DNA of 9,282 bases from a bacterium (GTDB taxonomy: Bacteria; UBP15; UBA6099; JAJRTR01). Below the pieces are notes generated by a model. It worked only from the letters and a program-made list of their open reading frames with translations. It made no database searches and was not told the origin of the DNA. The translations under genes and the position numbers were made by a program. Where the stretch lies: the NCBI GenBank assembly GCA_024278215.1, contig JAJRTR010000195.1, forward strand, positions 1-9,282. Direction: 5' to 3'. Below, piece after piece: positions 492 through 9,045 of this stretch (its first letter is position 1; every line of letters starts with the position of its first letter).

Positions 492-977
492 ATGGGGCCG
501 CTAAGAATAGAAAACGAGGTTGTCACCACCCGCGAACTTCTGAGAATGGCGAAGACTTTGCCCGGTGCATGGACAGGGCTGAAAATAGCTGTGCTTATCC
601 TGATAAAGAATGGATGGCGGCCTTCGGAATTGCAGGAAACTTTCGGGCTCAGCAGGCAGACAATGACACGCTGGGTACATGAGGTCAACGACGCCGGAAT
701 AGAAGCGGTGGTGAAAACGCCGCCGCCGGGACGCCCCGGACAACTCACCAGCGAAATAAAGCAGCAGCTTATTGAAGACCTCGACATCGGACCAAGGGAG
801 TTCGGCTATTCAAGAAAAAAATGGAACGCTCCCACACTTGTCAATCATCTAAAGGAACACTACGGTATAGAGGTCAAAGTGAGGCAAGCGAGGAACTATC
901 TGAAAGAACTGGGATACAGGGGTAAGGGAAATGACATATCTTCACTTTTCAACAGGCAGGGAAATGCAGAGAAATAA
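492..977 (+). CDS. Double helix-turn-helix protein, IS630-transposase-like N-terminal half
   Basis: This 161-residue protein has two DNA-binding parts. A first HTH spans about residues 27-64 (SELQETFGLSRQTMTRWV), a Pro/Gly/Arg linker follows at about 77-86, and a winged HTH of the kind found in IS630/Tc1-type transposases covers about 111-143 (WNAPTLVNHLKEHYGIEV). Full IS630 transposases run to about 340 residues and place the DDE nuclease domain after this point. Here the frame stops soon after the winged HTH, and the next 133 bp show no DDE remnant. It is therefore either a decayed transposase fragment or a domesticated DNA-binding protein. The clean frame and a good promoter make a working gene plausible. 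An in-frame stop at 474 limits the start; ATG 492 lacks a Shine-Dalgarno site, and ATG 546 is an alternative. A regulatory role on the downstream gene would be guesswork. Confidence 0.7.
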   Translation: MGPLRIENEVVTTRELLRMAKTLPGAWTGLKIAVLILIKNGWRPSELQETFGLSRQTMTRWVHEVNDAGIEAVVKTPPPGRPGQLTSEIKQQLIEDLDIGPREFGYSRKKWNAPTLVNHLKEHYGIEVKVRQARNYLKELGYRGKGNDISSLFNRQGNAEK

Positions 978-4057: not shown

Positions 4058-5974
4058 TCACTCTGCAAGTGTCGTCACCCACCAATAGTCGGACGTTTCG
4101 CGTGTTGTGCCTGTATCATCCTCGCATGATATAGTGAATATATACCGCGTGGCGGGCTCGAGACCGGACCACCTTATTGTGTGAGTGCGTGATAATTCCT
4201 TTTCGGTTTCGGCGACAGGTTCAAGCTCCATCAGATGTGTGCCGACGCGCAGCCCGCATTTGACTTTTTCATCAGTGATAAAACCGGCTTCCAATGAATC
4301 GATCGATTCTCCGATTTCAATATTACGAGCAACCGGTCCCGGCATGACGTATTCAGAAGTCTTCGTTTCCTGTTTTCCTTTTACCTGGCTGTAGTAGTTT
4401 GTTAGAAACTTTGCGATTCTCGCCGTGTTTCCGGGCCACTGGTTTTTCGGGAGTGTGTCGGCATAGCTGCCAAGGTCGGCGGCGAAATCGAGTGACCACT
4501 CGAGGTGTGCGGGATCACCGCTTTCGACATAAAGCCTGTAGGCCCATAGCGCTCCGTTCGCAAGCCGCCAGGTTTCGGCCGCTCTTTTCAACATTCCCAA
4601 TTCATTGCGAAGCAAGTTCTTATCACTTTCTTTCATTCCGGATACATTATTGATCTCATCGAAAATGCGATCTGAAATCGCGACTGCTTCTGATTTCTCC
4701 TCCATAATACGATTGTAAACATCGACATCGGGATGCGTCAGTTCGGCTTCCCGTTTTTTAAAAGCCGGGTCATAAAGCGCTACGCTGCGACCGGAGAGCA
4801 GGGCAGGGTAGGTGGCCGATGTCGTGAGGTCGCTTCCTTTTTCCAGCGCCCAGAATCCGAGAACATAGTACATCTTCCGTACCGCGTCGAAGCTGTGCTT
4901 ATAGATGTCGAGAAGCATTTTCGCATCTTCCGAATCAGGTTTCAGTCCGAATCTCTTTTCAAACCATTGCAGGCGCAGCGTGTCGGGGTCGGCGTCAGGA
5001 TTTTTCATGAGTTCGTGAAACGAATAAAGGTTTATCTCATTACCTGTGCCGAGCAGGCCTTCCGCGCCGCGCTCGACGCGTGCGACAAAACCGGATACGC
5101 CGTGATCGCGCGCGTACCTGATTCTGTATTGCAGATACTCCGTGAGGTCGGCGGGGAACGCACTCTTGCCCCAGTATTCGCCCGCAAGGTCGATCTCGAC
5201 AACCTGCGGATGTCCGCCCACCGCACCGATCAGACTGTTGTTCGGATAGTATGGTTCCCAATCCTGCGGTACACATTTCGACATTACGCTGAGCCCGTCG
5301 CGCCGCTCGCTTCGTATCAGTCCCAGGCGCACCCACTCGAGCTCGCGCGGCGTGTGTATGAATGTGCGCGCGACGAATTCCTTATGGTATTTTCCTATTA
5401 CGACGTCACCGATAATCTTTACGATCAGAGCTACTCGATCTCCGGCATCGTGTTTTCTGCACCAGGAGCAGGTGCAGAAAAGGCTCCACGGGTCGGGTCG
5501 CGAACTACCGAACGACACGATCACACCGTCGACATCGGGCACCTTCGCCAGCGCGTCGATATACGCCCTCCGCCGCACGGACCAGAATTCGCGGCCGTCT
5601 TTCGTGCGCGGATCGAGGCAGACGGTCATTTGTTTAGTGTTGAACTCATGTGTCCAGATATAAGTTTTTATCCCTTTGTCGCCGGCGCGCCGGGCCACCC
5701 TTTCGATGAGCGCGGCGCGGGCGGCGTCCTCGTTTATCCGGTCTATATTCATAATGATACTGTGTGAAAGCTGGATGTGATTGACACCGTAATCCGCCGC
5801 GAGGTCTATCATCCTGTCGATATGATCTTCGTCCGAATCGTGCAGTTGCCACCCGATGGTACTAAAAGCAGCGGGATCGACGGTTGAGTATGTTGTTATT
5901 GCAAAAGTAATACTAAACAGCAAACAAAAAACAGAAGTGATGAATTTGCCCGGTGTTATTAGCTCATTATTCAC
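4058..5974 (-). CDS. Exported glycoside-hydrolase-like TIM-barrel protein with C-terminal Fn3-like domain
   Basis: This protein of 638 residues starts with a likely signal peptide or membrane anchor (hydrophobic core about residues 11-28). A TIM-barrel-like region spans about 35-320 with IKTYIWTHEF, VDGVIVSFGSS and EINLYSFHELM. An alpha-helical region follows to about 535, and a beta-rich, Fn3-like tail (about 560-638) ends in LEPATRYIFTISCEDDTG. The EINLYSF...NPD...W pattern resembles GH67 and DUF4838-type alpha-glucuronidase-like proteins, but catalytic residues cannot be assigned, so carbohydrate hydrolysis is inferred. CTCSWC (C167, C169, C172) is a tight cysteine cluster, similar to one seen in such barrels, and could bind a metal or form a disulfide. 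GTG 5974 is chosen over GTG 5983 because GAGGTGA lies 5 bases before it. It begins 42 bp after feoB on the same strand, so co-transcription with the iron genes is possible. Confidence 0.6.
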   Translation of the reverse strand: MNNELITPGKFITSVFCLLFSITFAITTYSTVDPAAFSTIGWQLHDSDEDHIDRMIDLAADYGVNHIQLSHSIIMNIDRINEDAARAALIERVARRAGDKGIKTYIWTHEFNTKQMTVCLDPRTKDGREFWSVRRRAYIDALAKVPDVDGVIVSFGSSRPDPWSLFCTCSWCRKHDAGDRVALIVKIIGDVVIGKYHKEFVARTFIHTPRELEWVRLGLIRSERRDGLSVMSKCVPQDWEPYYPNNSLIGAVGGHPQVVEIDLAGEYWGKSAFPADLTEYLQYRIRYARDHGVSGFVARVERGAEGLLGTGNEINLYSFHELMKNPDADPDTLRLQWFEKRFGLKPDSEDAKMLLDIYKHSFDAVRKMYYVLGFWALEKGSDLTTSATYPALLSGRSVALYDPAFKKREAELTHPDVDVYNRIMEEKSEAVAISDRIFDEINNVSGMKESDKNLLRNELGMLKRAAETWRLANGALWAYRLYVESGDPAHLEWSLDFAADLGSYADTLPKNQWPGNTARIAKFLTNYYSQVKGKQETKTSEYVMPGPVARNIEIGESIDSLEAGFITDEKVKCGLRVGTHLMELEPVAETEKELSRTHTIRWSGLEPATRYIFTISCEDDTGTTRETSDYWWVTTLAE

Positions 5975-6016
5975 TGCTGTCACCTCGTGTACTTTATAAA
6001 ATGTGGGTACAGGTGT

Positions 6017-8212
6017 TCAAATACCAATGCCGAGAAGTCGACCGGTCTGGTATACGATGAAACAAACTGTCCAGGCGAGTGTCGATTGATATGCAACTGA
6101 AAATGCGGGCCATATCCACGAATTTGTTTCTTTTTTGATAATGCCGATAGTCGCAACACAAGGTACAGTCAGAAGCGTAAAGAGCATCAGAACGTAGGCG
6201 GTAAGCGGGTTGAAGTTAGGGTCTTTTCGTATTCTCTCGCGTAATGTTTTCGACTTCGCGTCGGCGTCGCCGATACTGTACACGGTGCCGAGTGTGCTGA
6301 CAACGAGTTCTTTAGCGAGAAACGCGGGAATGATGGATATGGTTGCCTTGAGGTCGAACCCGATGGGGCGGAACGCAGGTTCGATGAAGCTGCCGATTTT
6401 GCCGGCGAAACTTTTCTCCAGAGATTCACGTGCCATACGGCCTTCGAGTTGTTCGAGACGTGTTTGAAGTTCGGTAAATTCCGGAGATGCCGCAGGCGTT
6501 TCACTGTTGCCGGTCATCGCGGCAATCTGCGCATGTGTCGATTCGATTTTGACCTGAAGCTCGTTCTTTCCATCGAAATTTCTGGGGAAAGTCATCAGAA
6601 ACCACACAATCACGGATATCGCAAGTATGATCGTGCCGGCTTTTTTAACGTACATCCACGCGCGTTCCCAGATATGAAGCAGTACACTCTTAAGGGTAGG
6701 TATCCTGTAGGGCGGCAGTTCCATTACAAAAGGCGTAAGCTCGCCCTGAAAAAGAAAACGTCTGAAAACTTTTGCCATGATAACAGCCATCAGGATGCCG
6801 ATCAGGTACAGTGAGAAAATGATGTGTCCTGAAACAGCCGGGCTGAAAAATGCACCCGTGAGAAGAATGTAAACCGGCAGCCGCGCGCCGCAGCTCATGA
6901 GCGGAGTTATCAGAATTGTTATCAGACGGTCTTTCGGGTTGTCCAGAGTGCGAGTCGCCATTATCGCCGGGACGTTGCATCCAAAACCGATGACCATCGG
7001 GATGAATGATTTGCCGTGGAGTCCGATGCGGTGCATGATCCGGTCCATAATAAAGGCGGCGCGCGCCATGTAGCCGGAGTCTTCGAGCAGCGAAATGCCG
7101 AGAAAGAGCAGAAGGATATTTGGAAGGAAACTGACCACGCCGCCGACTCCCCCTATAACGCCGTCTACAATCAGGGAACTGAGCAGGGTGTCGCCGAGCG
7201 CTTGCGATAATATGACCGACATCCAGTTGAAGAGTGCGCCGAGCCATTCCATAGGCGGCGTGCCGATGGTGAATGTAAGCTGGAATGTCAGCCACATGAG
7301 ACCGAGGAATATAGGGAAACCGAGTACGCGGTTTGCGAGCACGGCGTCCGCGCGGTCGGAAGCAGTGCGGCGGTCGATGTTGGTTCTGCTCACCACTTCA
7401 CGGCAGAGGCCGCTGATGAAACCGTAGCGCATGTCGGCAATAACGATTTCCGGGTCTTCGCCCAGCGTGCTGCGTATATTTCCGCGGGCGAACTCCGCAT
7501 CGTCGGCAATGTCATTTCCGTTTTTGGCCGCACGCACATTTTCAATAATGTTGCTGTCGTTCTCGATCAGCTTTATAGCGAGCCAGCGTGGGACATATCG
7601 TTCTTTCAGTTCCGCATTGTTTTCGATCTTCCCGACAAGACGCTCGATCTCTTTTTCAGTTTCTTTTCCGTAATATACCTGTATCCTTTTTTTATCGCGG
7701 ACGCCGCGCGTTGTGTCCAGGACCGTCGCCACAAGTCTGTCCATGCCGTTGTTGCGCGACGCTACAGTCGCGACAACAGGAACCCCCAGCAGTTCGGAAA
7801 GGTACTGCGCGTCGATCTTAATACCCATTGTTTCAGCAGTGTCGATCATATTGAGAGCAATAACGATATTCGCGTTCAGCTCGAGGATCTGCACGGCGAG
7901 ATAAAGGTTTCTTTCCAGATTCGACGCGTCGAGGATACTTACAACGACATCCGGCTTTTCACTCATAATAAAATCGCGTGCGATAACTTCGTCCATCGAG
8001 TATGCCGTAAGACTGTAAGTTCCCGGCAGGTCCACAACCCTGAAATTGTGGCCGTCTCTGCTGAATGTGCCTTCCTTTTTCTCGACCGTTACACCCGGCC
8101 AGTTGCCGACATGTTGTTTTGCTCCGGTAAGGTTATTGAAAATCGATGTTTTGCCGGAGTTGGGATTTCCCGCAAGGGCCAGAGTTATGCATTCTTCCTG
8201 ATACCTGTTCAT
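6017..8212 (-). CDS. feoB: Ferrous iron transporter FeoB
   Basis: FeoB is the inner-membrane Fe2+ permease with a cytosolic GTPase domain. The 731 residues hold G1 GNPNSGKTS (15-23), a G2 threonine in WPGVTVE (T42), G3 DLPG (61-64), G4 NMID (121-124) and a G5-like ASRNNG (151-156), then a helical linker. The membrane part from about 295 contains the two inverted Gate repeats, with GFGCNVPAIMATRTL (C412), SCGARLPVY (C441) and LAKELVV around 633-639. Residues about 545-605, between membrane segments, form a charged, probably coiled-coil insertion (ELQTRLEQLEGRMARE). Length is typical of the long FeoB class. ATG 8212 has a GAGGAA ribosome site. No free-standing feoA precedes it; the FeoA domain is instead on the upstream regulator. 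Its own promoter and operator lie at 8260-8290. Confidence 0.95.
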   Translation of the reverse strand: MNRYQEECITLALAGNPNSGKTSIFNNLTGAKQHVGNWPGVTVEKKEGTFSRDGHNFRVVDLPGTYSLTAYSMDEVIARDFIMSEKPDVVVSILDASNLERNLYLAVQILELNANIVIALNMIDTAETMGIKIDAQYLSELLGVPVVATVASRNNGMDRLVATVLDTTRGVRDKKRIQVYYGKETEKEIERLVGKIENNAELKERYVPRWLAIKLIENDSNIIENVRAAKNGNDIADDAEFARGNIRSTLGEDPEIVIADMRYGFISGLCREVVSRTNIDRRTASDRADAVLANRVLGFPIFLGLMWLTFQLTFTIGTPPMEWLGALFNWMSVILSQALGDTLLSSLIVDGVIGGVGGVVSFLPNILLLFLGISLLEDSGYMARAAFIMDRIMHRIGLHGKSFIPMVIGFGCNVPAIMATRTLDNPKDRLITILITPLMSCGARLPVYILLTGAFFSPAVSGHIIFSLYLIGILMAVIMAKVFRRFLFQGELTPFVMELPPYRIPTLKSVLLHIWERAWMYVKKAGTIILAISVIVWFLMTFPRNFDGKNELQVKIESTHAQIAAMTGNSETPAASPEFTELQTRLEQLEGRMARESLEKSFAGKIGSFIEPAFRPIGFDLKATISIIPAFLAKELVVSTLGTVYSIGDADAKSKTLRERIRKDPNFNPLTAYVLMLFTLLTVPCVATIGIIKKETNSWIWPAFSVAYQSTLAWTVCFIVYQTGRLLGIGI

Positions 8213-8248: not shown

Positions 8249-8262
8249 AATTGCAAGCAATT
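8249..8262. repeat. Second inverted repeat at the feoB start region
   Basis: AATTGC-AA-GCAATT is a perfect inverted repeat of 6-bp arms with a 2-bp spacer, covering the predicted transcription start and touching the -10 box. It does not match the TTAG/CTAA operator. It may be a second regulator's site or a chance feature of AT-rich DNA. Confidence 0.35.
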
Positions 8263-8290
8263 ATAATAATTAGCATAATCTAACTGCTAA
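8260..8290 (-). promoter_or_regulatory. feoB promoter
   Basis: On the minus strand a perfect TATAAT -10 box lies at 8265-8260. The best -35-like hexamer is TTAGCA at 8290-8285, with a long spacer of 19 bp, so activation or a weak basal promoter is possible. Transcription would start near 8253, leaving a leader of about 40 bases before ATG 8212. The TTAG-N6-CTAA operator occupies the spacer, an ideal place for repression. Confidence 0.5.
8268..8285. promoter_or_regulatory. DtxR-type operator before feoB
   Basis: AATTAG-CATAAT-CTAACT is an inverted repeat, 5 of 6 matched, with core TTAG-N6-CTAA. It matches the operator in front of the regulator gene at 14 of 18 positions. TTAG/CTAA half-sites are a feature of the DtxR/IdeR consensus. 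A further half-site, CTAA, sits at 8287-8290. Metal-loaded repressor bound here would block the promoter. Confidence 0.6.
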
Positions 8291-8297
8291 ATAACAC

Positions 8298-8987
8298 TTA
8301 TTTCCGTTCTATTTCAATGTGGGCCGCCTCGTTTTTTCTCAGGGTCAGGTGGTATCCTTTGATTTTTATATCTATCGGATCACCGAGAGGAGCGACCCTG
8401 ATCATCTCGACACCCGTCCCTTTCGTGACACCCATGTCGGTCATGCGTTTGCCGATCTCACCCATCGCGCGGATATGGGTAATAACAGCCTTTTCGCCGG
8501 GTTTCAATTTGTCGAGAGTTGTTTGTTCAACTTCAGGTTTTGCCTCGATATCCTTCAAAAGCTTCATTCCTTTTACAAGATTACCGCGTGAAGAATCGGG
8601 CAACTCTGCGGCCCACCTGCTCAGAAAGATAAGCCTCTCGATCATAGATGTAGACAGTATGTGTTCGAGTTCGCAGGCATATTTCTCAGCCTCCAGCCTG
8701 TCCGAGAGCAGTAGTTCACTGAAGAAGAAATAAAGTTCCTCGTGCCGTCTGTTTATTATGCGTGCTGCCTTGTCGCCCTTCTCTGTGAGAGCAATACTTC
8801 GCCTCTTGTGGTAAACCACATAACCGAGATCGGACAGTCTTCTCATGCCGCCCGTGACGCTGGCCATAGTGACATTCAGGTGGGTAGCAACGTCGATAAC
8901 CCTCACTTTGTCTTTTGCCTTCTGGAGAACATATATTGATTCGAGGTAGTCTTCGAGCGCTGGAGTTAGTCCGGTTTTGTCTGCCAT
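8298..8987 (-). CDS. DtxR-family metal-dependent repressor with C-terminal FeoA domain
   Basis: This 229-residue repressor contains an N-terminal winged HTH (about 8-72, VATHLNVTMASVTGGMRRL), a metal-binding dimerisation domain (about 73-130), a linker and a FeoA/SH3-like domain (about 156-229, LKPGEKAVITHIRAMGE to RVAPLGDPIDIKIKGYHLTLRKNEAA). By alignment from memory, the primary metal site would use D13 (as D8 in MntR), C105 (as C102 in DtxR), E108 and H109, with H82 as a further ligand. Iron-loaded protein should repress; the neighbouring feoB makes Fe2+ the likely signal, with Mn2+ the alternative. The FeoA part is unusually close to free-standing FeoA. ATG 8987 is preferred over GTG 8999 because AAGG sits 5 bases before it. 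An operator overlaps its promoter, which implies autoregulation. feoB follows after 85 bp. Confidence 0.9.
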   Translation of the reverse strand: MADKTGLTPALEDYLESIYVLQKAKDKVRVIDVATHLNVTMASVTGGMRRLSDLGYVVYHKRRSIALTEKGDKAARIINRRHEELYFFFSELLLSDRLEAEKYACELEHILSTSMIERLIFLSRWAAELPDSSRGNLVKGMKLLKDIEAKPEVEQTTLDKLKPGEKAVITHIRAMGEIGKRMTDMGVTKGTGVEMIRVAPLGDPIDIKIKGYHLTLRKNEAAHIEIERK

Positions 8988-9001
8988 TTCAACCTTCACT
9001 C

Positions 9002-9019
9002 AATTAGCTTAGACTAATT
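9002..9019. promoter_or_regulatory. DtxR-type operator before the regulator gene
   Basis: AATTAG-CTTAGA-CTAATT has perfect 6-bp inverted arms around a 6-bp centre. Its core TTAG-N6-CTAA is shared with the feoB operator, and 13 of 19 positions agree with the DtxR consensus as I recall it. It spans the end of the -10 box and the predicted transcription start, so binding should block RNA polymerase. Confidence 0.65.
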
Positions 9020-9045
9020 ATAGCAGCGTCTCAATAACTTATCAA
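9017..9045 (-). promoter_or_regulatory. Promoter of the DtxR-FeoA regulator
   Basis: On the minus strand TTGATA (9045-9040, 5 of 6) and a perfect TATAAT (9022-9017) are separated by exactly 17 bp. Transcription would start near 9010, giving a leader of about 23 bases carrying the AAGG ribosome site. The -10 box overlaps the operator at 9002-9019. Confidence 0.7.

Follow-up and report, generated by a model that had tools for sequence, protein, structure and literature searches.

The window, a whole contig of 9,282 bp from a parent genome of 4.55 Mb in 207 contigs, encodes a DtxR/MntR-family repressor with a C-terminal FeoA domain that very probably controls both its own gene and feoB, which adjoins it downstream on the same (minus) strand after a gap of about 85 bp. 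Overall this is a known type of iron/manganese switch and a case of ordinary regulation. When the sensed metal (Fe2+ or Mn2+) is sufficient, a dimer of the regulator would bind the 14-bp palindrome TTAG-N6-CTAA at each promoter, covering the -10 box of the regulator gene and filling the spacer between the -35 and -10 boxes of feoB, so that RNA polymerase would be blocked at both; when metal is scarce, repression would lift and feoB would be made. Autoregulation and feoB control are likely because a DtxR-family protein with a FeoA tail is encoded here and the palindrome marks both promoters in distant phyla.

Regulator, promoters and sensed metal

Table 1. Positions of genes, promoters and predicted operators in the window
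Feature	Position	Strand	Details
Truncated IS630-type transposase	492-977		N-terminal part, 161 aa
641-aa protein	4058-5983	minus	directly downstream of feoB; without Pfam or NCBIfam match
feoB, Fe2+ (or Mn2+) transporter	6017-8212	minus	731 aa; TIGR00437, 8.3e-201
feoB promoter, weak sigma-70-type	8263-8290	minus	TTAGCA-16-TATTAT, 9/12; operator between hexamers
Predicted feoB operator	8268-8285		AATTAGCATAATCTAACT; TTAG-N6-CTAA core at 8270-8283
DtxR-family regulator with C-terminal FeoA domain	8298-8999	minus	233 aa from GTG 8999
Predicted regulator operator	9002-9019		AATTAGCTTAGACTAATT, AATTAG-N6-CTAATT; perfect 6-bp arms, exact core arms at 9004-9017; overlaps -10 box
Regulator promoter, sigma-70-type	9017-9045	minus	TTGATA-17-TATAAT, 11/12 consensus, extended -10 (TG); -10 box at 9017-9022

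The likelier start of the regulator is the ATG at 8987, which has an AAGG ribosome site and gives a protein of 229 aa. Pfam assigns it three domains (Fe_dep_repress, 8.8e-15; Fe_dep_repr_C, 5e-10; FeoA, 7.5e-21), of which the N-terminal winged helix (PF01325, 55.1 bits against a cutoff of 26) and the metal-binding/dimerisation domain (PF02742, 39.7 bits against 27) place it in the DtxR superfamily. Since the tail resembles the solved FeoA proteins 2k5l, 7r7b and 2lx9, and comparison with solved structures (at E 1e-3) gave no match to a DtxR SH3, the protein can fairly be called a DtxR-FeoA fusion. The promoter of the regulator looks real; that of feoB is called weak because the same scan gives about half as many sites in shuffled sequence.

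The sequence-only reading of this DNA had already recognized the fusion and both operator sites, which agree at 14 of 18 positions, one with perfect arms over TATAAT and the other between the -35 and -10 boxes of feoB, and these points hold. Its proposal of autoregulation and direct control of feoB is well supported by the comparative evidence given below and is very probably right.

The metal ligands of the regulator (D13, C105, E108 and H109, plus E16 and H82) combine the Asp of MntR with the Cys of DtxR, a D/C pair that 83 of 105 relatives of the regulator share and that is thus the normal state of the group. Relative to the DtxR/IdeR primary site (Met10-Cys102-Glu105-His106), the Cys, Glu and His are kept and Asp13 replaces Met; relative to the Bacillus-type MntR site (Asp8, Glu99, Glu102, His103), Cys105 occupies the Glu99 position, and the regulator scores below the cutoff of the NCBIfam MntR equivalogs. 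The one characterised protein with the D/C pair found in this analysis is PgMntR of Porphyromonas gingivalis, which sits with the FeoB-type Mn transporter FB2 and binds both Fe and Mn; Mn promotes its binding to DNA and Fe diminishes it (PMC4805248).

Iron sensing by the regulator is plausible because the adjoining feoB encodes the only FeoB of the genome: FeoB_C has a single match, and the other FeoB_N matches are far weaker and resemble ordinary GTPases. A switch with the same repression mechanism that senses manganese instead, in which an MntR-type regulator would govern import of Mn2+ by the FeoB homologue as in PgMntR/FB2, is possible but doubtful. Several observations point that way: D13, C105, E108 and H109 match D19, C108, E111 and H112 of PgMntR; the N-terminal part has its best matches, in both NCBIfam and the PDB, with MntR; a search of the genome for an Nramp-type Mn transporter found none; and certain FeoB lineages transport Mn (PMC8749426). 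The D/C pair, however, is too ordinary in the group to single out Mn, this FeoB, as the only one of the genome, is likely to be the ferrous-iron importer, and the E99 of MntR is replaced by Cys. With a hybrid site of the PgMntR kind, the iron named in the sequence-only reading is plausible but overstated.

Distribution of the palindrome

The exact motif occurs twice in the window against 0.07 expected, and none of 200 dinucleotide shuffles reaches two. With one mismatch allowed, the count in the window falls to the chance level with no excess, so the signal lies in the exact core. The whole genome, where a scan had been suggested along with the proposal of a wider iron regulon, contains nine exact sites, three of them just upstream of feoB, dtxR-feoA and a second dtxR (P about 1e-10 if sites are assumed to fall at a uniform rate, a figure that ignores the AT bias of promoters; in our judgement no reasonable correction for that bias removes the significance). 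The TATAATTAGTC-N4-CTAA layout recurs at the second dtxR. Elsewhere, one exact site falls within 23S rRNA (C190) and three within long ORFs (C24, C155, C179). Another (C150) is an isolated TGTTAG-N6-CTAACA palindrome in a very AT-rich, gene-poor gap of 1.7 kb (L015:4000-5780), and the site on C171 (L007:1501-1514; G000:C171:4762) lies between -35- and -10-like boxes of a gene for a 449-aa secreted FlgT/CsgG-like protein, which may be a further target or a chance occurrence. There is no evident metal link at five of the nine sites, and only four or five are plausible, so the proposed regulon is small.

The second DtxR paralog, a 151-aa protein without FeoA encoded on contig C44, is the only DtxR-family protein of the genome besides the window regulator. 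Because both paralogs carry the box, the binder is ambiguous, and the short protein might be the main repressor at all three sites while the FeoA-tailed protein does something else. We consider this unlikely, even with an exact operator 18 nt before the ATG of the short paralog, in the same layout over TATAAT, and 45% identity to the window regulator in the DNA-binding and metal domains. Three other genomes (G001, G006 and G027) have one FeoA-tailed regulator at an operator beside feoB, and no second homologue was found in them at E 1e-3, so FeoA-tailed proteins would suffice there. Repression by the FeoA-tailed regulator remains the preferred reading, and its arrangement of regulator, operator and feoB recurs in these distant genomes and in G084.

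Conservation extends much further. The 109 loci at which relatives of the regulator were collected span Thermodesulfobacteria, WOR-3, Fermentibacteria, Aquificota, Armatimonadetes, Halanaerobium, Spirochaetes, Planctomycetes, Lentisphaeria and others, and 100 upstream segments (-250 to +20) were used for footprinting. Among 4,352 palindrome types (256 half-sites x 17 spacings), TTAG-N6-CTAA is the commonest, present in 37 of the 100 segments, as compared with a mean of 0.5 and a maximum of 4 after shuffling; the same arms at gaps other than 6 occur in 0-3 of 100. Sites occur at 1.66 per kb ahead of regulators, at 0.51 per kb ahead of feoB and at 0.05 per kb elsewhere, with most upstream sites 24-68 nt before the start. 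The motif accompanies 28 of 43 FeoA-tailed regulators that have feoB just downstream and 2 of the 10 remaining ones. Owing to a few near-duplicate loci (L019/L020, L098/L099), the footprinting counts are not fully independent. A chance origin of the palindromes in AT-rich promoter DNA, by which they would be equally common at random AT-rich positions, has in its favor the one-mismatch count but carries negligible probability, and is already refuted by the comparative data, given the shuffles, the rarity and placement of exact sites in the genome, and a phylogenetic footprint with sharp spacing. The motif should be usable for annotating metal regulons in many deep-branching uncultured phyla.

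FeoA domains as regulator tails

Only two FeoA domains are encoded in the genome, as the tails of DtxR-FeoA and of a Fur-FeoA protein whose Fur domain is likewise the only one; no free FeoA was found in the assembly, which is 95% complete, so that a missing copy is conceivable. The Fur-FeoA protein (237 aa; L002:2158-2871, G000:C44:2286-2999) is encoded after the second dtxR. Between the two genes lies a MITE-like element of 148 bp with 23-bp terminal inverted repeats (L002:1969-2116, G000:C44:2097-2244); the genome carries some 35 copies of it, of which 18 show at least 90% identity.

A profile search revealed full-length Fur-FeoA fusions in 7 of 386 genomes (G000, G002, G041, G049, G108, G236, G275), plus locus L083. 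For most of them feoB lies in the same small locus, directly abutting in G049 and G236. Gene order in G002 is operator, fur-feoA, dtxR-feoA, feoA, feoB; G064 has separate fur, feoA and feoB, in that order. A Fur-type box, TGAAAATGATTTTCA, is located just upstream of fur-feoA in G049. The single FeoA domain in each of G001 and G006 is the DtxR-FeoA tail beside feoB, and the only FeoA in each of G049, G108 and G236 is Fur-FeoA, also beside feoB. No title or abstract describing a Fur-FeoA fusion was found in a literature search, and the available part of a survey of Feo evolution (PMC8749426) likewise contains no mention of one.

That part of the survey mentions FeoA with additional domains, and states that every bacterial Feo operon had either a feoA copy or a FeoB with an N-terminal FeoA domain. 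Regulator tails that are the only FeoA of a genome would fit this rule provided that such a tail functions as FeoA does. The metalloregulator could then be envisioned as the FeoA partner of FeoB, one protein linking transporter state and transcription, although we regard this as quite improbable. If it were true, regulator docked at FeoB would be kept from its DNA sites, or the apo-regulator would tune FeoB. Since a FeoA tail has been gained next to feoB both in DtxR and in Fur, two unrelated families of metalloregulators, and is in some genomes the only FeoA, the role of FeoA becomes directly testable.

Relation to known systems

The palindrome had been put forward as a family-specific motif. 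That claim is overstated: TTAG-N6-CTAA is not new, nor is it specific to this fusion family, but is the core recognized by a single dimer in the classical DtxR/IdeR box. It lies within the 19-bp box TTAGGTTAGSCTAACCTAA, half of which was shown to be bound by one IdeR dimer, and the 14-bp TTAGGNNNNCCTAA has been proposed as consensus (PMC8464063). Compared with TTAGGNNNNCCTAA, the outer TTAG/CTAA arms are exact at both window sites and the inner G/C of TTAGG/CCTAA is lost; by eye, the full 19-bp two-dimer box is absent at both. An HrcA/CIRCE assignment of the TTAG arms (TTAGCACTC-N9-GAGTGCTAA) is ruled out by arm length and spacing. In many deep-branching uncultured phyla, FeoA-tailed DtxR regulators encoded beside feoB are predicted to use the classical actinobacterial DtxR/IdeR half-box as their operator.

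DtxR and IdeR themselves (Corynebacterium DtxR, Mycobacterium/Saccharopolyspora IdeR) have in common with the window regulator the HTH, the metal/dimerisation domain and a C-terminal domain of SH3/FeoA fold, as well as TTAG-N6-CTAA in their operators. They differ in that the window protein has Asp at the M10 position and a tail that is true FeoA by sequence rather than a DtxR SH3, and in that their neighbours are siderophore genes, whereas the window regulator adjoins feoB.

Bacillus-type MntR is the best solved-structure match of the two N-terminal domains, and the equivalents of its D8, E11, H77, E102 and H103 are kept; unlike the window regulator, it is without a FeoA tail and has Glu99 in place of Cys105. 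PgMntR, for which no operator sequence was found in PMC4805248, has two FeoA domains where the window regulator has one, and otherwise presents the same combination of an Asp/Cys/Glu/His metal site, C-terminal FeoA and an adjoining feoB homologue, in its case FB2 in one operon.
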